From: Lodderomyces elongisporus
Lineage: Eukaryota; Ascomycota; Pichiomycetes; Serinales; Debaryomycetaceae
Assembly: GCF_030384665.1 (NCBI RefSeq)
Contig: NC_083673.1
Coordinates: forward strand, 1,745,501 to 1,809,500
Direction: 5' to 3'
Length of the DNA stretch: 64,000 nucleotides
Under the pieces are notes generated by a model. That model had not been told where the DNA came from. It saw nothing but the letters and a program-made list of their open reading frames with translations, and searched no databases. Shown in pieces: positions 10,860 through 54,586 of the stretch. Each line of letters opens with the position of its first letter. Within the stretch, counting starts at the first letter, position 1. A program made the translations under genes and the position numbers.

Positions 10860-11810
10860 GGAGGGGGAAGGAGGAAGGAGGAAGGGGGCGGGTAATGCGC
10901 GAGAAGGGAAAACAAGGAGCGGGAAGTGGAACGGTTGTGATTAAAATATTAGCCACATCTGATGGTTAAGGCCAGCAGAAAATTATAAATGAGCTGAACT
11001 CTCAAAGTAGGAATTGTGTTACCAACCACCACACAACAATACAAAATTTGCAACAAAATGATATTATTATATCTCTTGTGTTCCTGTTCAGTTTGCTTGC
11101 AACAAACCTGATGAGATTCACCAGCAATGCCATGTTAGATTCATATATGAATAAACATGTATATTTATGTATTGAAACATTTATTGGAAAACTGTGTAAT
11201 GCTCCATGTTCGTAATTTGGATCAGATACTTTCAAGTGCAAGACCTGCGAATATTTTCTAAACCACAGCTTCTTTTGATTATGTACGAATCAGTGCTTTC
11301 AGATATATCGGGCAAACTAGTAGTTTGATGAACAGGGAAAGAGCAGAGACGACAAAGTTGATAGACTGTAAATCCAGCTTCATTATACTCGACTCAAGAG
11401 ATCCTTTTCCCATCATTCTTGGTTCTCGCAAAAAAAAACAATCATACATGTATACTTGTAAAGAATGAACATTGAAAACAACATTTATAATAATAATCTA
11501 ATTAATACATTGGGAAACAAACAATCTCTTTTTTTTTTTCATTCTTTTCTTTTACAAAAAGAGGAGGAGGAAGAAGAAGAAGAAGAAGAAGAAGAAGAAG
11601 AAGAAGAAGAAGAAGAAGAAGAAGAATACACCCTTTTGATATTCTAGTCGTTAATCCTAATACTGTATTGCATCAATCAATGATATCAAAGACTGAAAAA
11701 AAACTTTTCAACTCCAGATTCTTCTTCTAAATTTTATAACTGAAAAACCCTCTTTTTTTTTTTAAAAAAAAATCAAAATTATAAGCATCAGCAAAACATG
11801 AAATCAAAAA
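10472..11810. other. Intergenic region with GA and GAA repeats, no supported gene
   Basis: About 1.3 kb between CAF16 (start at right) and the RIM1 stop, both on the - strand. It holds a (GA)n tract at about 10819-10854 within purine-rich DNA and a (GAA/GAG)n tract at about 11561-11627. ORFs overlapping these are repeat products. The segment next to 10472 should contain the CAF16 promoter. Confidence 0.5.
11561..11627. repeat. (GAA)n / (GAG)n trinucleotide microsatellite
   Basis: About 22 units. It starts with three GAG-type units and continues as GAA/AAG. It would encode poly-Glu in one frame, but no credible gene surrounds it. Confidence 0.9.
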
Positions 11811-24091: not shown

Positions 24092-24143
<52 letters not shown>

Positions 24144-37962: not shown

Positions 37963-40900
37963 ATGCAAGTTTTACAGGATATTTCTGGCTTTGCTTTTAC
38001 AAAAGTAAATAGCTTTGGTGCTAACATTATGTGGGCTGTATTCAGTTCTGTTAGCTTGTTGCACCATTTCAAGTACGACGTCTTGAACCATACGCAGGAT
38101 TCCATTGATGCTACGTCGATATCAATTCCTAAGAAGCTTCCGCCATTTCTTTACTCGCCACATGGCAACGCATTGAACCCAAAATGGGTGAGGTTAGTGG
38201 GTGAGGTTATAAACTATATATTCCTAACCTTTAGTATGATACAAAGCATTCAGCTTTTGGCAAAGAGGAAAAAAGCTAATTCTTCTAATGAAGTTCATAC
38301 CAAAACTACTTGGGTGCAAATTGCTACTTGTTTCTTAGTTCTTGATCAATTGGTATTGGATATTATTCTTTATGCATTCACTAAAAAGGAATTTATGCTA
38401 TCAAGTATTGCTGTTACAATTACTGTGGGATTTTTACAAATTTATCAATATAGGACATCTCCAATTGCTTTGGCATCGGGAATACTTTACTGGATTACAA
38501 CTTTTGTCGTCTTTTTTGTGATTATTGTCCAAGACATCTCTTCAAAACACAAGATAATCGCAACCACATCAGTCGAATTGGGTATTGAAACCATTGTTAT
38601 GTTAAACAGTTTAATTTTATTTGTTTTAAATGCTTTTTACTATAAACCTGGGTTTGAGATTGAAAACAGGGGTGGATATAGTGATGACGGCAATAATATT
38701 GCTGATAATGATTACAAAAGCAATAAACAAAAGGAGGTTGACGTTATATCTTATTTTACGTTCAGGTTTATTCAACCCGTTATTGATAAAGTGTACAAGA
38801 CTGATGATTTGTCTATGGCAGAGTTGCCGGATGTCTTGGGGAACCTCAAATGCGATAATTCTACATTGGCTTTGAAGAAGAACTGGGAGTATGAATTAAA
38901 CGTTAAGAACCATTTGTTTGCTAAAATCTGGCTGATTGTTACTCGCAAGAAGTATGCCAACACGCCAAGTTTGTTTAGCTCAATTTACAAAACAAACATT
39001 TCCTACATCTGGGGAAACCTATTGTTTAGCTTTGCAAACATTGCGCTTACTTTTGCCCAGCCATTTATTCTCAAAGAACTAATTGAGTTTTTTGCTAAAT
39101 ATCTTTCAACTGATAGTCAAAATCACCCTCCAATAATTGTTGGTTATTTCTGGGCTGTCTTGATGTTTATCGTTGCTACGGTTGATTTCATAGTATACAA
39201 TCAAGCAATCATTTTGCAAAACAACTTAGCGTATGCTATAAGAAGCTCACTAACTGTATTGATTTATGAAAAAGCACTCAAGCTTTCACCAGCATCGAAA
39301 AAGAAAAAACCAACAGGTGATATTATAAACTCGTTATCTGTTGATATTGGGCGCATTAATGGTTTTACAATGAGTTTGGGTGAGTACGCATCAAGCCCCA
39401 TTAAGCTTGTTATCTGTCTTGTTGCATTGTACAGGTTTTTTGGATTTGCATCTTTTTTTGGCTTGGGTGCTGCCCTTATCTCGGTGCCTCTAATTACTTT
39501 GGTCAATACAACGGTGATGTCTAGTTATAAGCAATTGATGAAGGATAAAGATGATAGAACTTCATTGATTAAGGAAATTGTTAACCTGGCAAAAAGCATC
39601 AAGCTATATTCGTGGGAAACTCCTATGTTAAAAAGATTGAACCATATCAGAAATGATAGAGAGTTGCAAAACATGAAAAAGATTGGTGTTGTTGTTGCTC
39701 TTGCTCAATTTTTGTGGTCATGTGTCCCATTTATTATTAGTTGTGCTTGTTTTGCTGGTGTCACTTGGCTTTACGGTCTTCCGTTGACACCTGAGATTGT
39801 TTTTCCTGCATTGACATTATTTGGACTATTAATGGAACCAATGATGTTTATCCCTCACTTTATAATAAATGTTCTTGAAGTTGCCGTATCACTTGGAAGA
39901 TTAACAGAATTACTCACTTTGGAAGAAATAAGTCCCAATCAGAATGGAAAAATACAAAGACGCGATGTTTCCAATGGTGGTAAATATTCTGTGTTGATTA
40001 AAAATGCTGATTTCGTTTGGGATGATAATAATACCAAGGAAGAGTATAAGGATGAGGAAAGTGAAATGCAACAACAAGATAATGAGAATGGCGAGAACTT
40101 TGCATTGAAAAACGTAAATTTCTATGCAATCAGGGGGAAATTGACTTGTATTGTTGGTAGAGTTGGAAGTGGTAAATCCACTTTATTGGATGCAATCTTG
40201 GGTGATGTACCTATTAAGACCGAGTCTCGATACTCAGATGATCCAAATAGTTCTAGCTCATTACCTTTAATTGAGACTTTTGGCAATATTGCTTATTGTC
40301 CTCAAGCTCCTTGGATATTGAATGGCACCATCAAAGACAATATCTTATTTGGCCACAAATATGACTCTGAGTTTTACCGCAAGACAATAGTTGCATGTCA
40401 ACTAGTTGCCGATTTCCAATCTTTGGAATTAGGTGATAAAACTCTTGTTGGTGAAAAGGGTATTTCTTTGAGTGGTGGACAAAAGGCACGTATTTCTTTA
40501 GCAAGAGCAGTATACGCGAGAGCGGATATTTATTTGTTGGATGATGTTCTTTCGGCAGTCGATGCCCATGTGGGCAAGGCATTGATGAGAGAAGTTTTGT
40601 CACCGCAAGGTATTATTGGGAACCGTACTAAGATTTTGGCAACAAACTCTGTACCAGTTTTGCATATGGCTAGTGACATTTTTCTTTTGTCAAATGGATC
40701 CATTATAGAGCATGGTGATTATGATTCAGTTGTCAAAAATAACGGTGAATTGGCGAAACTAGTTGAGGAATTTGGAAAGAAAGCTGGGAATAATAATGAA
40801 TCTGATACAAAAAGCGATCTGCAAATTGAGGCAGAAGAGTCCTGGAGTCAAAGGCACGACGTGGTTGACGAAGCCCAAGCAGAACACAATTTACTTGAAA

Positions 40901-42948
40901 TTGCTGATACTCCTTTGGAACCTTCAGGTCCCGGTGTTAGAAGCTTACGTCGAGCAAGTGTTACTTCATTTGATCACGTATATGATGATGATGATGTTGA
41001 TGAAGATGAAGATAATGAAATTTTTGCCAATACAGATATTGACAATGACGCTGGCCAACCTCAAGGTCAACGTCAGGGAGCCAACGTTTCCAAGTCAGTG
41101 CGAAAGACACCACTCGATGAAGAAGAGAGAGAAAAGGGTGCTGTTCCTCTCAAAACATTTGTGCGCTACGCCAAGGAATGTAACTACAAATTATTCCTTG
41201 TGTTCGTAGTGTGTATTTTGGCAAACTCGGTATTAAATGTTCTTGAATCGTATATTTTGAAATATTGGTCAAATTTGAACAAAGAGAATAATGCAACAGT
41301 AGCTCCTGGTTTTTATTTGGGACTCTATTTTGCTACTGGTGCAATGGCTGGTGTCGTTATTTATATTGGTTACTATATCCTTTGGTCGTATTGCATTATT
41401 AAAGGTGCTGCATACTTTCATAATGAGATGGCAAAAGCAATATTGCGCTCTCCTATGTCGTTTATTGAGACCACACCTGTTGGTAGAATATTGAACAGAT
41501 TCACACAGGATATTGACAAGACAGATATGATGTTACCATTCACCATGATTCAGTTTATTCAAACTTTTATCAGTGCAATAGTGACATTCTTGGTGATTGT
41601 TCTGACTTTGCCGATGATGTTGGTCATTATAGTCTTGTTCTCAGTGGTTTATAACTATTATCGAGTGCGGTACATTCCAACTTCGAGGGAATTAAAGAGG
41701 TTACAATCCACGGCCAATTCACCCGTGTTGGCGATTATCCAGGAGACGTTGGCTGGGGTTGATACCATCAAGGCATTTCAACAGAAAGAACGGTTTATTC
41801 ACAAGTGCAAAAAGTACATTGATGAAAGGACTTTGGTCAATATAGTTAGTGTTGATGTTGACAGGTGGCTTTCAATGAGATTGCAGTCTATCTCATCTCT
41901 AATATTGTTTGCTACTGCATTGTTTGCAGTTTGGACACTAAATACCAAGAATCCTATTGATGCTGCCTTGCTTGGTTTCCTTATGACATTTGCCTTGAAT
42001 GTTGCCTATATGTTGTCGGGTTTGATCAGGTCGTGGGGTATGGTTCAAGCAAATGGTGTTGCTTTGGAAAGGATTATTGAGTACTGTGACTTACCTTCTG
42101 AAGGTGCAATGATTATTGAAGGTAAAAGACCAAATGCGGAGTGGCCTGCTCAGGGTGTTGTTGAGTTCAAGGACTATAGCACTGCATATAGAGAATATCT
42201 AACTCCAGTGTTGAAGCAGATCAATCTCAAGATTGAGGCAAAAGAGAAAGTTGGTATAGTTGGACGTACTGGTGCTGGTAAATCTTCGTTAACATTGGCA
42301 TTGTTTAGGATCATCGAAGCTACAGGCGGATACATTGAAATTGATGGCGTCAATGTCAATGAAATTGGTCTTTATGATCTTAGACACCACTTGACAATTA
42401 TCCCACAAGAGGCGCATACATTTAGAGCATCAGTGAGGGAGAATTTGGATCCTTTTGGAGAGTATACAGATGAGAAGTTGTGGAAGGTTTTAGAGTTGGC
42501 ACATTTGAAGGAACATGTTGAGAGCATGGAGACTGATCCAACAAAGGATGAAAAAGAAAAAAGTGAAGATCCCGATGAGTTGCCAAAGAAGCGTGGTTTG
42601 GATGCGCATATTGAAGAAGGTGGTGCCAATTTGTCAGCAGGACAGAAGCAGCTATTGTGTTTGGCTAGGGCCTTGCTAAACGAGACGAGTAAGATTCTTG
42701 TGCTTGACGAGGCAACGGCTGCAGTTGACTTTCAAACGGACAAGATCATTCAGGAGACTATTAGGGAACAGTTTAAGGACAAGACCATCTTGACTATTGC
42801 GCACAGAATAGACACCATTATGGATAGCGATAAGATTTTGGTTTTAGATAAGGGTGAGGTTGCAGAGTTTGATACTCCTCAAAACCTCTTGAAGGACAAA
42901 CAAAGTATCTTTTACTCTTTGGCAAGCGAAGGCGGCTATCTCAAGTAG
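37963..42948 (+). CDS. MRP-type (ABCC) full-length ABC transporter, copy 1
   Basis: A 1661-residue transporter of the Ycf1/Bpt1 class, which load glutathione conjugates, metals or bile-acid-like compounds into the vacuole. The order is TMD0 (about 15-225), TMD1 (about 345-660), NBD1, linker, TMD2 (about 1075-1360), NBD2. NBD1 has Walker A GRVGSGKST (about 732), LSGGQKARI and Walker [12 protein letters not shown] (Asp in place of the catalytic Glu, usual in MRPs). The linker RSLRRASVTS (about 990-1000) matches the Ycf1 phosphoregulatory RRAS site. NBD2 has GRTGAGKSS (about 1434), LSAGQKQLL and [13 protein letters not shown] charged insertion lies before the NBD2 signature. It forms a tandem pair with the next gene, with an identical 3' end. 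CaMlt1-like is possible. Confidence 0.92.
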   Translation: MQVLQDISGFAFTKVNSFGANIMWAVFSSVSLLHHFKYDVLNHTQDSIDATSISIPKKLPPFLYSPHGNALNPKWVRLVGEVINYIFLTFSMIQSIQLLAKRKKANSSNEVHTKTTWVQIATCFLVLDQLVLDIILYAFTKKEFMLSSIAVTITVGFLQIYQYRTSPIALASGILYWITTFVVFFVIIVQDISSKHKIIATTSVELGIETIVMLNSLILFVLNAFYYKPGFEIENRGGYSDDGNNIADNDYKSNKQKEVDVISYFTFRFIQPVIDKVYKTDDLSMAELPDVLGNLKCDNSTLALKKNWEYELNVKNHLFAKIWLIVTRKKYANTPSLFSSIYKTNISYIWGNLLFSFANIALTFAQPFILKELIEFFAKYLSTDSQNHPPIIVGYFWAVLMFIVATVDFIVYNQAIILQNNLAYAIRSSLTVLIYEKALKLSPASKKKKPTGDIINSLSVDIGRINGFTMSLGEYASSPIKLVICLVALYRFFGFASFFGLGAALISVPLITLVNTTVMSSYKQLMKDKDDRTSLIKEIVNLAKSIKLYSWETPMLKRLNHIRNDRELQNMKKIGVVVALAQFLWSCVPFIISCACFAGVTWLYGLPLTPEIVFPALTLFGLLMEPMMFIPHFIINVLEVAVSLGRLTELLTLEEISPNQNGKIQRRDVSNGGKYSVLIKNADFVWDDNNTKEEYKDEESEMQQQDNENGENFALKNVNFYAIRGKLTCIVGRVGSGKSTLLDAILGDVPIKTESRYSDDPNSSSSLPLIETFGNIAYCPQAPWILNGTIKDNILFGHKYDSEFYRKTIVACQLVADFQSLELGDKTLVGEKGISLSGGQKARISLARAVYARADIYLLDDVLSAVDAHVGKALMREVLSPQGIIGNRTKILATNSVPVLHMASDIFLLSNGSIIEHGDYDSVVKNNGELAKLVEEFGKKAGNNNESDTKSDLQIEAEESWSQRHDVVDEAQAEHNLLEIADTPLEPSGPGVRSLRRASVTSFDHVYDDDDVDEDEDNEIFANTDIDNDAGQPQGQRQGANVSKSVRKTPLDEEEREKGAVPLKTFVRYAKECNYKLFLVFVVCILANSVLNVLESYILKYWSNLNKENNATVAPGFYLGLYFATGAMAGVVIYIGYYILWSYCIIKGAAYFHNEMAKAILRSPMSFIETTPVGRILNRFTQDIDKTDMMLPFTMIQFIQTFISAIVTFLVIVLTLPMMLVIIVLFSVVYNYYRVRYIPTSRELKRLQSTANSPVLAIIQETLAGVDTIKAFQQKERFIHKCKKYIDERTLVNIVSVDVDRWLSMRLQSISSLILFATALFAVWTLNTKNPIDAALLGFLMTFALNVAYMLSGLIRSWGMVQANGVALERIIEYCDLPSEGAMIIEGKRPNAEWPAQGVVEFKDYSTAYREYLTPVLKQINLKIEAKEKVGIVGRTGAGKSSLTLALFRIIEATGGYIEIDGVNVNEIGLYDLRHHLTIIPQEAHTFRASVRENLDPFGEYTDEKLWKVLELAHLKEHVESMETDPTKDEKEKSEDPDELPKKRGLDAHIEEGGANLSAGQKQLLCLARALLNETSKILVLDEATAAVDFQTDKIIQETIREQFKDKTILTIAHRIDTIMDSDKILVLDKGEVAEFDTPQNLLKDKQSIFYSLASEGGYLK
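42238..42932 (+). repeat. 695-bp block identical to 48588-49282 (copy A)
   Basis: I compared the 3' parts of the two ABC genes line by line. 42238-42932 and 48588-49282 are identical at every base, at a constant offset of 6350. Identity breaks at 42237 (G versus C) and at 42933 (C versus T). The block covers NBD2 from just before Walker A to four codons before the stop. Confidence 0.97.
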
Positions 42949-44336
42949 TATTTTAAAAGCAAATAGTAATGTTTTAGATACATGTGTTTATAATTTGTTT
43001 TATTTTGATCTAATCCTGACTCATAAGACTTGATTAATCCTCTGCGTAACTTGACGGAATTATATCCCAAAATGGAATTCATATTGACGGGCAGATGGGT
43101 GAGGGCAGAGGATAAAAACATCGAGTCATAGACGTGCTTCTGTAGTCAAAACTATTGTTAACTAGACCCGCATTGGTAATGAAATTTTTCTTTTTCTGTT
43201 CCTGTTCCTGTTCCTATTCCTATTCCTGTTGCATTTCAATATTATTTTTATTATTTATTATTTATTATTTATTATCTCATCTTGTTTACATAAAATATTT
43301 TGTACGTGGTATTGATGCCGTCTACTTCTGTGGCGCGCGCGCCTCCTCCCCCCCCCCCCCCCACGCTTGCATTAAGGAGGGAAAGCTAATCTGTAAGGAG
43401 ATAAATTCATCAAGGCTAGAAATGTATTGGACAGAGATTGGCACGAGACGGATTAAATAAATAAAATAAATTAAATAAAAAAAGAGAGAAATGTGGCATG
43501 GCTCTTACAAAGTCAAATTGACTTTGACACCATTTAGTAGAGAGACTGCAAAAGACTAATAATTATCGAATAAAGTAAAAAGTCATAATGAAAAAAAAAT
43601 GAAAAAAAGAAGAGAGAGAGAATACTAGGGAACATTCAATCTTCAATTATCTTTGTTTAGGTTTTGTTTAGGTATTGCTATTTTGCATGGCTATGTGATT
43701 AGAAGATCAAACTAGAGCTATCGTTAAAGAAGAGCGTATGAAAATTCTCCTCATCTTCTCAATTTTCAGCTTATGACGGTGCTGAAGGGCCATGTTTTCA
43801 CCTGTTAAACAAGTAAAAAAAAACCGTAATTGACACATAGTAACTCTCAGGAAATGTTAATGTTTCCCATTCTGGACACTTTTCCGTATCTTGACTCATA
43901 TTTGTTGTTGTTGTTGTTGTTGTTGTTGTTCTGTTCCGTCACCATAAAAGAAGAAGGAGTTACGTGGGATTAGGAATCTGTGCTGTATAGATTACACAAA
44001 CAACAAGTTCAAACTCTTGTTTCTCTCTCTTTCTCTCTATTTTTTATTTTATCGAATTTTTCACCGCTATCGCCTTATCGCAAGAACAATACTATTTTAA
44101 TATTTCATCCAATTCAATACATATATATATTTTTTTTTTTCAATTTTATTTTTTCGTTTATTTGCTTTAAGTTATTCATTTTGTATAAAAAAAGAGGCTA
44201 CAATCCTTCAATTCTTTTCATTTTCATTTTCATTTTTATTTCCTTCTCCTTTTGCCCTTTTTTTTAGTTTCTTTATTAGTATCTTATCTCATCTTGAATC
44301 AAAGACTACAAAAGCATCAAACTAATTGTCCAAGAC
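42949..44336. promoter_or_regulatory. Intergenic region between the tandem ABC transporters
   Basis: About 1.4 kb, being the 3' flank of copy 1 and promoter of copy 2. It holds (CCTGTT)n and (TTA)n tracts near 43197-43275, a GC-rich GGCGCGCGCGCC followed by 15 Cs (43348-43362), a (GTT)n tract near 43903-43931 and T-rich leader DNA. No gene is seen. It does not resemble the region upstream of copy 1. Confidence 0.5.
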
Positions 44337-47300
44337 ATGGATAAAAACAATTCTGTGTTAAGTGGGAACCCCTGGAGTGACCATCTCATCACGGGGTTCA
44401 ATTCATTTCAATTATCGCTGCTAAACCCATATTCCTTACTACACACATTCAATTATTTGAGCGTCAAAGATGACATTGTTGTCGGAGTTGATAGTTTATT
44501 TAGCGTCAATGCTAATGATTTAAAAAGTTACATACCTGATCCTCTTTACTCAAACCACGAAAATGCCGTTAACCCACAGTTTGCATATTTTGTTGGCTAC
44601 TTGCTAAATGGGTTTTTTGCTATTTTTATGGCTAAAAGTTTTGTCAAATTGTTATTTACCAACCAAAAGCACAATCGAATACAAACGGCAACACCATTGA
44701 CTCAAACGTTTAAAGTATTTTTAATAATAATTCAAATTGTGGTGCTAATCACTCTTTTCCTCCTAACCAAGTTACATGTAACTGCAAGTTTGGCTGCAGT
44801 GACAACATTGGCTTTAATACTTGCCATGGTGGAGTTTAGAAAATCGCCGATACCAGTAGCCTCATCCTTGTTATTTTGGATTACCAATACTTTCTTTATA
44901 TTTGGTGTGTTTATTCAAGACACATTCTCAAAACACAAGATTATAACTTCATCGAGTGGTGCAGAGTACATATTGGAAATCTTTTTGTTAGTCAATAGCT
45001 TACTGATCTTCATTTTGGAACTTGCTTACTATACACCAGGTTTTGAAACTGATAATGTACCTTTTATGGAGAAGACAAATCTTTTTTCATACATTACTTT
45101 CTACTTTTTACAGCCATTGATCAATCACATTTATGAAACCAATGATGTCAAGTTTGAGGAATTACCTGAAATCTTGGGAGATTTATCCTGCGATAAAAGC
45201 AAAGCAAAGGTTATCAAATATTGGGATGAAGAAAAAGAATTGGCCAAACTGAGAAAGCCTAGTATTTTTTGGAAAATATGGAATAGACTCAAAGGTAAGA
45301 AAACATCCAAGAAACGCCAAGATGAGAAAAGTAAACCGAATTTGTTTACTGCAATTTTTTTGGCATTTCTTCCACAATTTTTTGGCAATTTTGCATTGAA
45401 AGTTTTGGAAACGACTCTCAACTTCCTGCAACCATTTGTTTTGATGAAGTTCATCCAATTCTTTACAATATACTTTTACAGTTTGGAAAAGCCACCAATA
45501 ATCATTGGATACTTTTGGGCGGCTTTGATGTTTACTATTTCCTGTGCAAATTTTATAACATTCAACCAAGCATTTAGTCTACAGTACAGTATGGGGTATG
45601 GGATCCAAAGCTCATTAACTACCATAATCTACGAAAAAGCCTTGAGATTGTCTCCTCAATCCCGAAAAAACAAACCTACAGGGGACGTCATTAATCACAT
45701 AACTATGGACATTGATATAATTTTTTGGTTCTGTTGGAGTCTTGGTGAATTTATGGCTGCTCCATTGAGGCTTGGCGTTTGCTTGGTTTCCCTATACAAA
45801 TTGTTTGGAAATGCTACTTGGGCAGGTGTTTTGACGGCGGCAATCGTTACTCCGATCGCCACCAAAGTAAATACATCGATGTCAAAGTATTATATTCAAG
45901 AAATGAAAGATAAAGATGACAGAACTAGCTTGACCACTGAGATTTTAAACTCGGCAAAGAGCATCAAATTCTACTCTTGGGAAAAGCCAATGTTGGCCCG
46001 GTTAAGTCATATAAGAAATGACAGAGAGTTGTACAATATCAAACAGTGTGGTATTGTTAGTGCTTTGGCTCAATTCTTTTGGTCATGCATCCCTTTTTTC
46101 ATCAGTTGCTCGACTTATGCTGCATATTCGTATTTCTACAGTGTTCCATTGACCCCAGATATTGTGTTTCCAGCATTGGCCTTGTTTGACTTGTTATCAG
46201 AGCCAATGTTGTTGATTCCTAATTTCATTGTTGATATTATCGAAGTCAGCACCTCTATGGGCCGTATTGGTGACTTGCTTTGTTTAGATGAACTTGCAGA
46301 TGATCAAGATGGTCATGTTATTAGAGATCCAGAGGCTCGTGACAATAGTGAAGTATCTGTCATTATCAAAGATTCTACATTTATCTGGAATAATAGCTTG
46401 GATGCAGACGACAAGTCCCAGTTCAAAGATGAGGAAAGTGAAGTGCAGGAGGATAATTCGAGTACTACAAACAATATTGCATTGAAAGATATAAATTTTA
46501 TTGCCAAAAAAAGCAAGTTGACATGTATAGTGGGTAAAGTTGGTAGTGGTAAGTCCACATTGATTAGAGCCATCCTTGGTGACATTCCCATCGATATTCC
46601 TCAGTACTCAGATAATCCTGAAAACAGTCAGCCTCAACCCAGTGTCAAAACATATGGTTCGATTGCTTATTGTCCTCAAGCTCCTTGGATATTGAATGGT
46701 ACAGTTAAAGAGAATATCTTATTTGGCCACAAATATGACTCTGAGTTTTACCGCAAGACAATAATCGCTTGCGAATTAGTATCTGATTTCAAAACATTAC
46801 CAGATGGCGATCAAACTGTGGTTGGTGAAAAGGGTATTTCTTTGAGTGGTGGACAAAAGGCACGTATTTCCTTAGCAAGAGCAGTATACGCGAGAGCAGA
46901 TATTTACCTATTAGATGACGTCTTGTCTGCTGTGGATGCACACGTTGGAAAAGCTTTGATCAAGCAAGTTCTTTCTGATGATGGTATAATCGGTGATCGT
47001 ACAAAGATCTTGGCTACAAATTCGGTTCCAGTGTTACATGAAGCCAATGACATTTATCTTTTGGTTGACGGTAAGATTGCCGAGCATGGAAACTATGCCA
47101 AAGTCATGAAAGCCGACGGCGATTTAGCAGCTTTGATTAAGGAGTATGGAAGAAAGAAAGATGATGGAAAGGCTTCAGAGACTGCAATTGATATTGATGG
47201 TGTACCAATCAAAACCAATAAATTAGCTTTGTCGCCAGACAAATCTGTGGATCCCGCTGAGGCTTTAAACACTCAGGATTTGGTGGATGAAATAGTAGAC

Positions 47301-49298
47301 TATATGGGAGAAGAAAACCGTGGAGTAGTACGGCAGTCAATTTTGCGTCGTGCATCTTTGGTCTCTTATAATCACACTTATGAAAATGATGTTGACGATA
47401 ACGAAGAAGAAGGGGGTGATGGTGATGGTGGCGGACAAGTTCCCGTTGTGAGAAAAACTGGTCACACTGAAGAGGAGTCACGAAAAGGTACTGTTCCTTG
47501 GGATATTTTCAAACAATATATTGTTGCTTGCAATTACAAATACTTTTCCTTTTACGTTATTGGAACTTTACTCACCTTGCTCATAACTGTTGCCGAAAAG
47601 TACTTGTTGAGCTACTGGTCTGGAATCAATAGAGATGAGAACAAAACCGTCAATCCTGTATTTTTTTTGAGTGTTTATGCGCTTTTGGGGGTTGTTGCTG
47701 GGTTATTGACATACTTGGCAGCTCTCGTGATTTGGGGATATTGTATAGTTAAAGGGTCTGCATATTTTCATGACAAGATGGCCCAGTCAGTTTTGAGATC
47801 ACCAATGTCGTTTTTTGACACCACTCCTGTGGGAAGGATATTGAACAGGTTTACTGAGGATATCGGCAGACTCGATATGAATTTTCCATGGATGTTAATT
47901 GGGTTTGTTACTGCGGCATTGAATGCATTGGTGACATTTGGTGTCATTTTCATTTCGCTTCCAGCTATGTTCTTTGTCATTTTGGGCTTATTGGTTGTTT
48001 ACAACTATTTTAGAACAAGATTTGTGCCTGCTGCTAGGGAATTGAAGAGGTTGGAATCTGTTGCCAAATCACCCGTGTTGGCCACCATTCAAGAATCTAT
48101 TAACGGTGTCGATACTATCAAAGCTTTTCATCAGAGAGATAGGTTTGTTCACAAAAGCAAAAAGTTTGTTGACGACAAAACTCTCATCGGTGTTGTAACT
48201 CAAAATTGTAACAGATGGTTATCCATGAGGTTGCAATTTATCTCATCGTCAATCATGTTTGCTACTGCCCTTTTGGCGGTTGTCACCTTGGGCGGTAAGC
48301 ATCCAATCTTGCCAAGTGTATTAGGGTTTGTTATGACTTACTCTCTTAGTGTCATGTACATTTTGAATGCAATTGTTAGATATTGGGCAGATATGCAATC
48401 TGGCGGTGTTGCTATAGAGAGAATAATTGAATATTGCAACTTGCCATCTGAAGCACCAATGATTATTGAAGGTAAAAGACCAGATGACAAATGGCCAGCT
48501 AATGGTATTGTTAAGTTTAAAAAGTACAGTACTGCCTATAGAGCCAACTTGGATCCAGTGTTGAAAGAGATTGAGTTGACTATTGACGCAAAAGAGAAAG
48601 TTGGTATAGTTGGACGTACTGGTGCTGGTAAATCTTCGTTAACATTGGCATTGTTTAGGATCATCGAAGCTACAGGCGGATACATTGAAATTGATGGCGT
48701 CAATGTCAATGAAATTGGTCTTTATGATCTTAGACACCACTTGACAATTATCCCACAAGAGGCGCATACATTTAGAGCATCAGTGAGGGAGAATTTGGAT
48801 CCTTTTGGAGAGTATACAGATGAGAAGTTGTGGAAGGTTTTAGAGTTGGCACATTTGAAGGAACATGTTGAGAGCATGGAGACTGATCCAACAAAGGATG
48901 AAAAAGAAAAAAGTGAAGATCCCGATGAGTTGCCAAAGAAGCGTGGTTTGGATGCGCATATTGAAGAAGGTGGTGCCAATTTGTCAGCAGGACAGAAGCA
49001 GCTATTGTGTTTGGCTAGGGCCTTGCTAAACGAGACGAGTAAGATTCTTGTGCTTGACGAGGCAACGGCTGCAGTTGACTTTCAAACGGACAAGATCATT
49101 CAGGAGACTATTAGGGAACAGTTTAAGGACAAGACCATCTTGACTATTGCGCACAGAATAGACACCATTATGGATAGCGATAAGATTTTGGTTTTAGATA
49201 AGGGTGAGGTTGCAGAGTTTGATACTCCTCAAAACCTCTTGAAGGACAAACAAAGTATCTTTTACTCTTTGGCAAGCGAAGGTGGCTATCTCAATTAA
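44337..49298 (+). CDS. MRP-type (ABCC) full-length ABC transporter, copy 2
   Basis: A 1653-residue paralogue of the gene just upstream, same strand and same domain order. NBD1 has Walker [10 protein letters not shown] (about 731), LSGGQKARI and [11 protein letters not shown]. The linker phosphosite-like [12 protein letters not shown] lies near residue 1000, and NBD2 has GRTGAGKSS (about 1426). The TMDs differ clearly from copy 1, with many substitutions in the first 300 residues and the linker. From residue 1419 to residue 1649 the protein is identical to copy 1, including the charged insertion before the NBD2 signature. The divergent TMDs with a shared NBD2 suggest different substrate ranges, which is inference. 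Confidence 0.92.
48588..49282 (+). repeat. 695-bp block identical to 42238-42932 (copy B)
   Basis: The partner of the identical block in the first ABC gene. The sequence diverges abruptly on both sides; downstream, the two genes end LKstop and LNstop, and their 3' flanks share nothing obvious. Confidence 0.97.
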
Positions 49299-49528: not shown

Positions 49529-50755
49529 TTACGCAGAGAACTCTTCAATCAAATTTGTCAAATCCGCTCTTTGCTTCATCAACTTGACCTTTCTTGCATC
49601 TGATATCGGAGTCTTCAACAATCTTTTATCGGCAGCCTTGCATAAACCTTTCCGACCCAAACTACATATATCACAGTTAGGAGCTCTGGGAACACATATA
49701 ACTTGACCGAATCCCACCATCAAAGGGTTGACGTCAATCCAATATTTCTTTGGTAGCCAGCTCTCTAGCTCTAATCGGCATTTCTCGGGTGTACTTGCCT
49801 TGGGAGTTACCCAATGCCACATTTCAGCTAGTCGATGCAAATGTACATCAACACCAATTCCCAGATTAATGCCCCAACCACATTGTAGTAGCAAATACCC
49901 CATCTTGGGACCTACACCAGGAAGTTTGACAATTTCTTGTATTGTTTTTGGTATATCGCCGTTAAAATCATTGATAAGGATTTGACATGCTTTTTGAATG
50001 TACTGTGCTTTGCGATTATGAAAACCTACCTTGGCAATATATGCATCAATTTCATTAGGACTAAGTTTTGACATTGACTCAAGACAGAATCCCAATTTGG
50101 GAAAATGTCTCAGTAAACCTCTCTCCAACTTAACCATTGCATCGTAGTTGACTTCATCTTTGGTTTGAGAAGAAAGCATCAAGGATATTAGGAGTTGAAA
50201 TCTGTATTTTTTGGGGTCCTTTGTCTTCAAGTTTGGGGTGATTGTGTTGGGCATGGACTCACAACCTTGGTGGTCTACCGGTGCAAAAAATTTTGAGCGT
50301 AATTCAACTACTTCGTTATAAATTTTGACCCAATTTGTGGGACTATGACTATTCGCATCTTCAAGGTCTGCTTTTACAAAAACATTTGGCTCGTGTGCCG
50401 GCGACAACGCCAGCGTCGTCATATGTTCCAGGTCTCGGTTTAGACCTGAATCTAGCCCTTCCTTTTCTATCTCAACTGCTATGTGCTCTATCTTGACAAG
50501 TGTAGGGCCTGGTTTGGGCTCTTGCTTTGGCTCTTGTTTTGGCTCTTGTTCTTGCTCTTGATTCTGGTCGACATCAATAAATGTCGAATTATCTTCTTTA
50601 AAGACAAACGCGTCCAATTTGGTTGTGTGGACTACTTCTGATGTATTCAGCTTCTCATTTTCAACTGTAACTTTCCTTCTAGTTGATCTGGATGTGACAG
50701 GAGATATAATTGATGTGTTAACCGGTCTCTTTCTTAATGCAGCTCTGCCCGGCAT
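49529..50755 (-). CDS. NTG1: Endonuclease III-type DNA glycosylase/AP lyase
   Basis: About 408 residues. It removes oxidised pyrimidines in base-excision repair. The frame runs upstream to 50809, but only from a GTG. The first ATG (50755) gives MPGRAALRKRPVNTSIIS, a basic Ser/Thr-rich leader suited to mitochondrial and nuclear targeting. The helix-hairpin-helix LPGVGPKMGYLLL carries the catalytic Lys (about 284) and GVDVHLHRL the catalytic Asp (about 303). Four cysteines near 354-372 (C-x6-C-x2-C-x7-C) could bind a 4Fe-4S cluster, as in E. coli Nth and yeast Ntg2 but not yeast Ntg1. Residues 60-140 are acidic and carry a Lys/Glu/Gln/Pro repeat. Confidence 0.92.
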   Translation of the reverse strand: MPGRAALRKRPVNTSIISPVTSRSTRRKVTVENEKLNTSEVVHTTKLDAFVFKEDNSTFIDVDQNQEQEQEPKQEPKQEPKPGPTLVKIEHIAVEIEKEGLDSGLNRDLEHMTTLALSPAHEPNVFVKADLEDANSHSPTNWVKIYNEVVELRSKFFAPVDHQGCESMPNTITPNLKTKDPKKYRFQLLISLMLSSQTKDEVNYDAMVKLERGLLRHFPKLGFCLESMSKLSPNEIDAYIAKVGFHNRKAQYIQKACQILINDFNGDIPKTIQEIVKLPGVGPKMGYLLLQCGWGINLGIGVDVHLHRLAEMWHWVTPKASTPEKCRLELESWLPKKYWIDVNPLMVGFGQVICVPRAPNCDICSLGRKGLCKAADKRLLKTPISDARKVKLMKQRADLTNLIEEFSA

Positions 50756-51256
50756 AATATTCCATCCGGTTGTTTGCTTTTTTTTTTCTTTGTTTTTTGG
50801 TTTCTCCACAACTACTTTTTCACAAGAGTCGTTCTATTTCATTGTTTAAATTATTCTTTTTAGTTGATCTAAAGTCATGGATTTCGCATTTCTGTCAAGG
50901 AATTTTTATATGTGGTACAAAATCTGAATCTCTTGTGAGTCAAAGGCTGTCTCGCCGTTTCCGGTCAATTTTGTTTTTTTTTTTGGTTTTTTTGGCTTTT
51001 CTTTATATATATATTTGTATATATTTTTTTGCGCTTACACCCTCTATCCTCGTTCTCTCTTACGACAATTACCCCAGACCCTTACCATTAGAAAATAGCC
51101 CAATACCAGTACCTCCATTACACATCTACATATTACTTACATTTCACCAACCCTTCACAAAAAATTGAATCAACTTGTTGTCAGCATATTATTAACTTAA
51201 TAACGTGTACTTTGCAAATTTTAGTGCATATCCTACTTTTTAAAAAAGCATAGCTG
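50756..51256. promoter_or_regulatory. Divergent promoter region of NTG1 and CAT8
   Basis: A 501-bp region with poly-T blocks near 50968-50998 and AT-rich DNA. The ORF at 50770-51168 (+) is Phe-rich and unsupported. No distinct motif is identified. Confidence 0.45.
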
Positions 51257-54200
51257 ATGTCTAGTATAAGTGAAAGTCAATTAAATAACGAAGTTTCAAC
51301 CCTCAATAATTCCAATGAGGAATATGGTGTTCGATCAACAGCCAAGAAAATAAGGGCTCCAGGAAGCAGAATAGTCAGGGTCGCACAAGCGTGTGATAGA
51401 TGTCGAGCCAAAAAAACTAAATGTGATGGAGGTAACCCATGTTCTACTTGCTCGGCAGTGGGGATGAAATGTATCGTTTCCGATAAACTCAGTAGAAAAG
51501 CATTTCCAAAAGGATATACAGAGACCCTAGAAGAGCGGGTGAGACATTTGGAAGCTGAGAATAAAAAGCTAACGGGCCTTTTGGACTTGCGTGGAGAGCA
51601 GCTCGAGATTCTTAATACACAAGCAAGACTGTCTGTTGCATCTGGAGCAATCACTACTGAATCCACCTCACATAATACAAATAATCAAGCGAGTAGTTTA
51701 CCGAACAATACTCAGGGTGAGAGAATAACTGCATCCAATCTTCATCTTCTTGATCAACAAAATGCTATGCATCTTCATATGCACGATCACGAGAACGGGT
51801 GCTCATGCGGTTGTGCACTTCCCAATGCTGTCCATGACCGACCAGTATCAGTCGCGGGTTCCTTATATGGTGCAGGACCCGTTTCCATTGCGAGTTCCGT
51901 TAGATTGAGCGATGATGAGTATGATTATGATCATAGTGGCTATAATGGTCATAATTTCAATGATGATGATGATGATGATGATTACGATTACGATGATGAC
52001 TATAACAGCTTGGCAAGTGTAGACGATATGCCACATCGCTTTGCTCCAAACCAAAAATATGAACATAAACAGGAACACGAACATGAACATGAACATGAAC
52101 ATGAACATGGCAAAGTACGAATAAGAAATCATTTTGCATCAAATTCTACAAATAAAGAAGCTAGTCCAGCACCAGGTGCGTTTGCCGCAGCAACCGCTAT
52201 TGCACAAATGCAAATGAACAAGTCTTTTCAGCAACAACAACAGAAACTTGAAAGAGAGACGAACAAGCAACGCATGTTGACATCTTTGGTGGCAACTTCG
52301 ATGCCTCGCAGTACCGAGGAAACGCTTTGTGTTCCAACGCTTTTAGCGCGGGTATGCCAAGCTTATGGTTATGACTCGCAACCATCGATATTAGCAGCAA
52401 ATACTTTAGCATCTTTGAAAGAGCAAAATGGAACTGTTAATTTAGTGTCCACGGATCTAGATATTCAGGAAAGGCTTTTCAAAATGATTATGAATCGAGA
52501 TAAAATTAGTAGTTTACCTGATGCCGAGGCAATTGTGTTTTTAAGGGAGCTAATTGGATTCCCTGTATCAAGGCTAGACTTTGATCAGCTTTTGACGATT
52601 TATTTTCAAAGTTGGGGTAACACATTGCCTATACTTGACAAGACGCATTTTCTCGGTAATTATGTGAATATATTGCACATTCTAGAGTTTGGAATTATAC
52701 CAAGCGATTTGAAAAAAGGTAGCTTTGAGCTGATTGAAAAAGTTGGTGCTCTACTAGTCTTAGCCTTGAGTTTAGGTTTTTTGGCAAATAAGAATAACTA
52801 CCTCGTTCATGATAACGCTAACTTTTATATTTCACTAATGAAACGCTATGACCATTTGATCCATGAGTTCATCAAGCCCAATTGCCTCATTACCAAAATA
52901 TGTTCAATTCAATCGTTGCAGATCTTATCTTTGGCACTTCAATACTGTCTTGCAATTGGTGACTTGTCCACTTGCTACGAATTGAGAGGCAGAGTTATCA
53001 GCATGGCTCAACAATTACGATTGCACAGGTGTCCCGCTGCAGTTTTGGCTGTCAATACAAGTAACGAGGGAAATTTCACTTTACAAAATTTCATGCAAGC
53101 AGAGAGAAGAATCTTGTTTTGGTGTGTTTATTGCCTTGATACATACTCATCGTTAAATTTGGGTGTGCCTCGACTAATGAAAGATTTTGAGATTGAATGT
53201 GCTATGCCATTCTCTGGAAAGCATAGTGACATTGACAAGGAAGGTGATGAAGTTGACCTTAACAACGATAAACAAAATCATGATCATAATCATAATCATA
53301 ATCATAATAATAATAATAGTAATGATGACAATGACAATGACAATGATAATGTGAACATCTTGATCATTAATAATACCAAACTTTCGATTGTTGGAAAAGT
53401 GTCAAGAATGGCACTTAGTGTGATGTTGTTTTGTAAAGTTTTGGCCAATATTTTGGATTCCATCTACTCAAGATTCAATCATAGTGATACCTTACACAAA
53501 GATAGGATGCTTGAATCTTGGCGAAGAGAATTACCTGCTGACTTCCGATTCGAATTGGATACCAATGGTCTCACGCTCAAATTGCCAGAGAACTTGCACA
53601 TAGATGGCCAATTGTGGGACCATTTAACCTCGCAGCAATTAACCTTGGTTTATTTATATTATCATGCCAAAATTTTGATCCATTTACCAATTATCTCAAA
53701 ACACGGCAACCACCACAATGTTGGATTATCACAAAAAGAGCAATTAATGAAAGGAGAAAGTGATGCCGCCAGTATAGTTGCCACCATGAGCGTAATTCAA
53801 CAGTCGTCACACCAGATCCTTGAAGTGATTAAAGCCTACACTAAAAAGGTTTCTTCACCTATATTACCTATCCCAATCAATGTGGCACGCGAACAAGCCT
53901 TATTAACACTCCTTGTAGCAAAAGGAACATTGGACTATATTAAAGGTGGGCATTTGTATAACAGTCTGAAACAGTTGGTGTTGGACTCGGTCGCTGGGTT
54001 AGCAGGTGAAGCCAAGTTTATCTTGCCTGGAACTTTAACTCGAAATGCATGTAAGCTTTTGGAGTTAACCACGCTTAGCATTCTTGGAGTTAATTTGAAC
54101 AAATTTCAGAATGGATTGAAGAAGAAGACGACGGCATTGGGTACTCCAATATCCAAACCAGCTGTTAAGAGAGAGCCGAAGCTGTTAAGATCTAAAGAAA

Positions 54201-54586
54201 ATGTTTCGTTAAATTTTTCCGGCCCCAAATTGGTCAACAATAATAGCTTCAATAAGAATCACAATAGTAACAATACTATGAAACAAGAAGAGGTCATCAT
54301 CAGTGCCATAAACCAGCCAAGCACAAATAGTTCAGCAGAAAACCAAATAGGTGTCAATATGGAACTACTGGATCAAACTTTAAATCTTGATGATATGGAT
54401 AGTTTGGAGAGTCTTCTTAGATTTGATCCATTTAGCATCACTCCAAACAACCAAATGTATATGAATGAATATGTCACTGATGGTTCGTTGGGGTTGGTGC
54501 CATTTTTAGAGATGCCAGGTCCCGAAGTCTTTGATTCGAATCCGAACCTGGAGCAAACTTCTTTTCAAAATTATAGCAACCTATAG
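51257..54586 (+). CDS. CAT8: Zn2Cys6 activator of gluconeogenic genes Cat8
   Basis: A 1109-residue transcription factor. Cat8 activates gluconeogenesis and glyoxylate-cycle genes on non-fermentable carbon, under Snf1 control. The zinc cluster and linker at about residues 43-90 ([19 protein letters not shown], then [20 protein letters not shown]) match Cat8, and a coiled coil follows ([16 protein letters not shown]). Residues 130-330 are low complexity with Asp/Tyr runs and a His-Glu repeat. The fungal-specific middle domain begins near 440 ([21 protein letters not shown]) and continues past 720, interrupted by an Asn/His/Asp insertion (about 665-695). The acidic C-terminus ([15 protein letters not shown]) is a likely activation region. 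Confidence 0.92.

Follow-up and report, generated by a model that had tools for sequence, protein, structure and literature searches.

Recent ectopic gene conversion of the 3′ end of a tandem ABCC transporter gene pair very probably explains a perfect 695-bp repeat in Lodderomyces elongisporus, and like events, affecting NBD2 and shorter pieces of NBD1, have probably recurred in CUG-Ser yeasts. The pair lies in a 64,000-nucleotide stretch of contig NC_083673.1 (the window, whose numbering is used throughout); this contig is the largest of the genome (3,597,007 of 16,086,460 bases in eight contigs). The two genes adjoin in tandem, both on the plus strand, and together span 11.3 kb:

37963..42948, plus strand: gene 1 (clade A), an open reading frame predicted to encode an ABCC/MRP full transporter of 1661 aa, CUG-Ser code.
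44337..49298, plus strand: gene 2 (clade B, Mlt1/Bpt1-like), predicted from its open reading frame and Pfam domains to encode an ABCC/MRP full transporter of 1653 aa.
42949..44336, no strand: intergenic spacer between gene 1 and gene 2, the start of which lacks similarity to the flank 3′ of gene 2.

Each encoded chain contains two ABC_membrane and two ABC_tran stretches according to Pfam, giving the architecture of an ABCC/MRP full transporter. The best solved relative in a structure search, which had gene 1 only as query, was S. cerevisiae Ycf1, and the relatives of gene 2 in the protein search include proteins named BPT1 (61-74%) and MLT1 (69%). The ATP sites of ABCC proteins are usually asymmetric, with an aspartate following Walker B in NBD1 and a glutamate in NBD2. 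Both translations have this arrangement, as well as LSGGQ in NBD1 and LSAGQ in NBD2. Over 1618 aligned residues the two proteins are 58% identical, with values of 43% in TMD0-TMD1, 70% in NBD1, 28% in the linker, 54% in TMD2, and 65% immediately upstream of the shared block, within which identity is 100%. The block occupies the following positions:

42238..42932, plus strand: NBD2 block, gene 1 copy, from residue 1426; it extends from 8 residues before Walker A to at most 16 nt from the gene end.
48588..49282, plus strand: NBD2 block, gene 2 copy, identical to 42238-42932 at 695 of 695 bases and at 228 of 228 silent codons.

The initial annotation had reported these two intervals as matching base for base, third codon positions included, and so they do. 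It had also proposed that silent divergence be followed along both genes. This comparison, restricted to L. elongisporus and to degenerate codons at which both genes specify the same amino acid, found all 228 such codons identical within the block versus 321 of 668 elsewhere in the pair (Fisher p = 2e-59). The left edge is sharp to the base, as claimed: in the 25 codons directly upstream, only 7 of the 16 degenerate codons that specify a shared residue match. The same claim for the right edge requires qualification, since the block is followed there by one mismatch, 11 matching bases, and then the stop codons, and no ungapped similarity was found in the approximately 200 bases compared beyond both stops; thus, the right edge lies near the end of homology. 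Likewise, the block comprises most of NBD2 but not the entire domain, as it begins nine residues inside the ABC_tran stretch of gene 1 (1417-1586), leaving the first part of NBD2 outside. The NBD2 glutamate after Walker B indicates that the block carries the NBD2 side of the catalytic site. Finally, the description of the pair as otherwise diverged holds for the membrane domains (43-54%), the linker, and the 3′ flanks, but not for NBD1, where islands of silent identity were detected (see below).

No comparable repeat was observed within the material searched. Apart from the block, the longest exact repeat of any kind in the window is a 59-base simple repeat, and the longest exact match joining the two genes, 51 bases, lies in NBD1. 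A genome search with 42100-42960 as the query scored four candidates, such that its counts are lower bounds; among these, the block was found at the two known places only, and the next match was 75% over 182 bases on contig C7. When this pair and 13 further genomic pieces of ABC loci were compared with one another (not all of the pieces cover a whole gene, and they are not a genome-wide survey), exact matches other than same-gene overlaps did not exceed 26 bp among the 12 longest of 91 pairwise matches, three of those 12 being overlapping pieces of one gene.

Perfect identity with a base-sharp left edge could also be produced by an assembly artefact, in which the block was copied in silico between the genes or reads were collapsed, an alternative raised in the initial annotation. 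However, the sequenced strain, NRRL YB-4239 (GCA_030384665.1), was assembled with hifiasm from PacBio HiFi reads of >20 kb, according to the assembly details given in PMC10586162, and such reads exceed the 11.3-kb pair, making an artefact very unlikely. Moreover, P0001, a gene-1 protein from another ENA source and the only member of the pair available from it, matches the block at 229 of 230 residues, yet outside the block it differs from gene 1 by 15 substitutions and a 4-residue insertion (excluding four CTG codons translated under a different code). Signs of such a process in the proteins of relatives, described below, also argue against an artefact. With no differences in 695 bases, the conversion is recent; the single differing residue in the P0001 block is compatible with an event that predates or postdates the divergence from that strain.

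Two further explanations were weighed against these data. The tandem direct-repeat arrangement would permit unequal crossing-over or partial duplication in the array, leaving a chimeric gene with the 3′ end of the other, and crossover chimeras have been reported for C. krusei ABC11/ABC1 in the part of PMC6053246 that treats this locus. Such an event should also have moved the downstream flank, but no similarity was seen in the bases compared past the two stops, and it would leave unexplained the S. coipomensis case presented below, in which the proteins are encoded on different contigs; this explanation is thus considered highly improbable. Even less credible is extreme purifying selection on both protein and nucleotide sequence in the absence of recombination. 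NBD2 is indeed well conserved between species (84-92% among the clade B rows compared), but the 228 of 228 identical silent codons in the block contrast with 4 of 20 at NBD1 residues 858-880, a stretch in which the two proteins share at least 20 of 23 residues, and the block of gene 1 and gene 2 differs by 11-19% from the compared orthologs.

The comparison with sister species suggested in the initial annotation was performed at the protein level. Searches returned 126 proteins, including clade A (gene-1-type) and clade B (gene-2-type) proteins in related yeasts, of which 28 were chosen by species and rank and aligned together with gene 1 and gene 2 for tree construction; P0006, which is identical to gene 2, was left out of the trees, and a partial C. 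margitis row is absent from the block tree and the AU tests. In the membrane-domain tree, the seven gene-1-type rows form one clade with support of 100, the rows labeled C. albicans, C. maltosa, and C. viswanathii belong to the gene-2 side, and the AU test rejects grouping gene 1 with gene 2 and P0001 (p-AU = 3e-69). The block tree instead unites these last three sequences with support of 100, and for the block a clade of gene-1-type rows is rejected (p-AU = 0.0006); as that test did not constrain the identical rows of gene 1 and gene 2, its outcome depends on the other species. For NBD1, neither of the two groupings is rejected (p-AU = 0.16 and 0.09). The block tree also groups other proteins by lineage, namely the C. 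verbasci pair (support 96), four proteins of C. jiufengensis and C. pseudojiufengensis (89), and the proteins of the C. parapsilosis group (87, with inner values of 81 and 64).

The conflict was quantified by counting the sites that support grouping paralogs by species and those that support grouping orthologs, in each of the ten pairwise comparisons among five species; these ten comparisons share sequences and are not independent, and the tests treat sites as independent. For L. elongisporus versus the other four species, species-type and ortholog-type sites number 19/0, 18/0, 14/0, and 18/0 in NBD2, as opposed to 4/44, 3/45, 1/46, and 4/30 in TMD2 (Fisher p ≤ 2e-10). Overall, orthology prevails in TMD2 in all ten species pairs, whereas species grouping prevails in NBD2 in nine, and the counts for the two domains differ in every pair (Fisher p ≤ 0.008). 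Among the six NBD2 comparisons that do not involve L. elongisporus, five favor species grouping (8/2, 8/0, 9/1, 8/1, and 6/3); the exception is C. jiufengensis versus C. pseudojiufengensis, with 3/6, where the first half of NBD2 (0/4) bears no mark of conversion and the second half has 3/2. C. verbasci additionally shows species-type counts in the second half of NBD1 (5/1, 5/0, 4/0, and 7/0 versus the four other species). The initial annotation envisaged a single event; these relatives suggest recurrence.

As a control for overall relatedness, NBD2 identity was evaluated at given TMD2 identity across 123 rows that passed a length filter and 7,296 of their 7,503 pairs that passed an overlap filter. 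An NBD2 excess was found in four of ten putative same-contig pairs, namely those of L. elongisporus, C. jiufengensis, C. metapsilosis, and C. verbasci, for which the fractions of protein pairs with values as high were 0.0019, 0.013, 0.015, and 0.0012, respectively. The other six putative same-contig pairs had no NBD2 excess (0.16 for C. pseudojiufengensis and 0.17-0.48 for five Scheffersomyces pairs), suggesting that NBD2 conversion is episodic.

Further NBD2 tracts are suggested in C. jiufengensis, the C. parapsilosis group, and S. coipomensis, in the last case between different contigs. The evidence outside L. elongisporus is at the protein level throughout, and the switch points given here are best splits of informative protein sites, obtained without a permutation test. 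With L. beijingensis as the ortholog, the left edge in L. elongisporus gene 2 is placed at 1423-1426, with 32 of 32 sites paralog-like after it and 12 of 140 before. Candidate switches in C. jiufengensis lie at 1553-1575 in the A gene (13/13 paralog-like after, 15/158 before) and at 1552-1581 in the B gene (14/14 after, 8/169 before). P0004 has a candidate switch at 1428-1432 (13/22 after, 11/148 before), and the C. metapsilosis B gene, with P0004 as the donor, has one at 1425-1427 (9/14 after, 1/164 before); between C. metapsilosis and C. theae, B-gene identity is 98% for TMD2 and 92% for NBD2. In C. verbasci, 17 of 19 NBD2 sites are paralog-like after 1423-1430, compared to 38 of 95 before. 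Several of the 13 trios lack a clean switch, including A_Cpseudojiuf (9/36 after, 8/127 before) and A_Cmetaps (7/27 after, 8/134 before). The best splits differ among lineages, suggesting that left edges vary between them, and the candidate tract runs to the protein end in L. elongisporus, C. jiufengensis, and S. coipomensis, but not in the comparison of P0004 with C. metapsilosis.

In S. coipomensis, the membrane domains of P0109 are 85% identical to those of P0117 and 55% identical to those of P0056, a protein encoded on a different contig. After a switch at 1455-1468, however, 33 of 33 informative sites of P0109 match P0056, versus 39 of 522 before. In trees of 19 chosen rows, grouping of P0109 with P0056 is rejected for the membrane domains (p = 2e-6) and grouping of P0109 with P0117 is rejected for NBD2 (p = 0.005), the NBD2 region (1480-1656) having been picked after a discordance scan. 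This loose scan of the 123 rows yielded 16 recipients in 70 trios for NBD1 and 17 recipients in 139 trios for NBD2, but it is noisy and does not constitute evidence alone: the best trio uses P0025 or P0023, both with an unusually diverged NBD1, in 14 of the 16 NBD1 recipients, and P0020 in 8 of the 17 NBD2 recipients, and the conclusions rest only on trios examined site by site. A scan value of 100% for P0033, a partial protein, was taken as an artefact. Separately, stray yeast DNA was sought in contigs of bacterial and archaeal genomes, where the three loci recovered were all distant bacterial ABC matches.

Within the L. elongisporus pair itself, silent-codon comparison points to candidate tracts other than the block:

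40288..40521, plus strand: NBD1 of gene 1, silent-identical runs at 40288-40323, 40333-40389, 40435-40494, and 40498-40521.
46662..46895, plus strand: NBD1 of gene 2, partner of the gene 1 runs in the silent-codon comparison.
42097..42132, plus strand: silent-identical run of 9 codons upstream of the block in gene 1, alone not significant.
48447..48482, plus strand: partner of 42097-42132 in gene 2 in the silent-codon comparison.

The NBD1 runs, which contain 11, 18, 18, and 8 silent-identical codons, are probably older or shorter conversion tracts. A maximum run of at least 18 codons arose in 6 of 20,000 permutations, and the run segments have 55 of 63 silent codons identical versus 46 of 107 in the remainder of NBD1 (p = 7e-9, with the segments picked after viewing the data); residues 858-880, with the low silent identity noted above, lie just after the runs. 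The run at 42097-42132 is possibly a trace of an older tract. With A_Cjiufeng as the ortholog, gene 1 turns gene-2-like at residues 1376-1386 (45/47 after, 29/100 before), suggesting that an older layer may reach upstream of the sharp block edge.

The identity, its edges, the silent-site contrast, and the tree conflict are direct observations, and the silent sites, flanks, and trees agree with the initial annotation in favoring recent gene conversion as the best explanation. By this mechanism, the 3′ end of one gene would have been replaced non-reciprocally by that of the other via homologous recombination; the copied stretch begins in NBD2, 8 residues ahead of Walker A, and runs to the final codons, approximately where homology stops. 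The unrelated 3′ flanks suggest a non-reciprocal transfer, as a crossover would have carried the flank along; the membrane domains have stayed with their orthologs. Transfer from gene 1 to gene 2 and the reverse are not distinguished by the distances between the block and B-type relatives. As to why NBD2 is involved, purifying selection may keep the NBDs of the paralogs alike, such that mainly the NBDs still contain stretches long enough to recombine. Repair of a break in one copy from the other could then restore identity, and each conversion would raise the chance of the next, while the membrane domains, once diverged, would be out of recombination range. We infer this recombination pathway and feedback, together with a lack of functional cost of the exchange, from the pattern described above.

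A version of the conversion model in which selection keeps converted alleles because a shared NBD2 is advantageous, rather than as a by-product of conservation, appears rather unlikely. Tracts do recur at the catalytic NBD in several lineages, as this version would predict, but the by-product model predicts the same places, and several pairs have no NBD2 excess. The initial annotation saw conversion as keeping the catalytic half shared; conversion as a by-product of conservation accounts for the shared half equally well as conversion that serves it. A broader proposal, for which the odds are judged to be about even, is that NBD2 acts as an interchangeable catalytic cassette in Mlt1/Ycf1-type ABCC transporters of CUG-Ser yeasts, copied repeatedly between paralogs with approximately 50% identity in the membrane domains in at least four lineages, and also across contigs. 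If so, the engine and the substrate path of these transporters would have evolved along separate histories throughout the clade.

Concerted evolution can be limited to a single domain of a gene family, a general phenomenon in which a conserved segment is homogenized while its neighbors diverge; here, that segment would be the ATPase module of a full transporter, and its left edge would differ from one lineage to another. Among yeast ABC genes, C. krusei (Pichia kudriavzevii) ABC11-ABC1 is a pair of the PDR/ABCG type, and the L. elongisporus pair is of the ABCC type. The C. krusei genes form a tandem pair, with recurrent gene conversion and chimeric contractions, as summarized in a passage of PMC6053246 citing Lamping et al. 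2017. In both species, then, tandem ABC paralogs are homogenized by conversion, but according to the same passage the C. krusei genes function in drug efflux and are 98% identical in DNA, whereas the L. elongisporus proteins are 58% identical and homogenization is confined to most of NBD2 and traces in NBD1. A paper on ABCG2 and its paralogs in birds mentions gene conversion (PMC7362505) and concerns vertebrate half-transporters, unlike the genes described here. The domain set of the pair is that of the vacuolar ABCC proteins C. albicans Mlt1 and S. cerevisiae Bpt1/Ycf1; for the L. elongisporus pair, vacuolar localization and transport of conjugates or lipids are putative. P0008, a protein of 1606 aa, which is the length given for Mlt1, shares 70% identity with gene 2. 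A literature search, mainly of open-access papers, returned nothing on gene conversion in these ABCC genes. Thus, conversion between yeast ABC paralogs is known, and its repeated restriction to NBD2 between strongly diverged ABCC paralogs seems to be new.

If DNA data bear out the pattern, NBD2 replacements between ABCC transporters would have occurred repeatedly in nature, suggesting that this domain works with quite different membrane domains, and trees based on whole ABC proteins or on NBDs only could misplace orthologs in this group. In addition, a 695-bp perfect direct repeat with copies 6,350 bp apart predicts that fused single-gene alleles occur in populations, as have been reported for the C. 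krusei locus in PMC6053246.

Within the first ATPase domain (NBD1) of the two tandem L. elongisporus transporter genes, consecutive degenerate codons encoding the same residue are identical between gene 1 and gene 2 in runs that lie within the following segments:

40288-40521 (gene 1) and 46662-46895 (gene 2), NBD1: short silent-identical runs, with diverged codons between them

These runs are probably older conversion tracts. In C. verbasci, the pair P0015 and P0024 shows unusually high similarity over the latter half of NBD1 (about residues 813-935 in the numbering of gene 1), which suggests that conversion took place in this domain there too. Among three related proteins all named Scheffersomyces coipomensis (P0056, P0109, and P0117), P0109 corresponds to P0117 in its membrane domains and NBD1, but most of its second ATPase domain (NBD2) is that of P0056; P0056 and P0109 nevertheless lie on contigs that differ in length.

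The record of another related protein, P0007, carries the label 'Asgard group archaeon'. This protein shares 70% identity with gene 2 and clusters with rows from C. viswanathii and C. albicans; it probably stems from yeast DNA contaminating an archaeal bin.

Downstream of the transporter pair lie two neighbors:

49529-50809, - strand: HhH-GPD base-excision repair protein
51257-54586, + strand: Zn(2)-Cys(6) transcription factor

This transcription factor could conceivably regulate the transporters.

Elsewhere, the window contains perfect repeats with units of two or three nucleotides (AG, GAA, and AAC), each about 50-61 bases long, at 1215-1275, 11568-11626, and 24092-24141.
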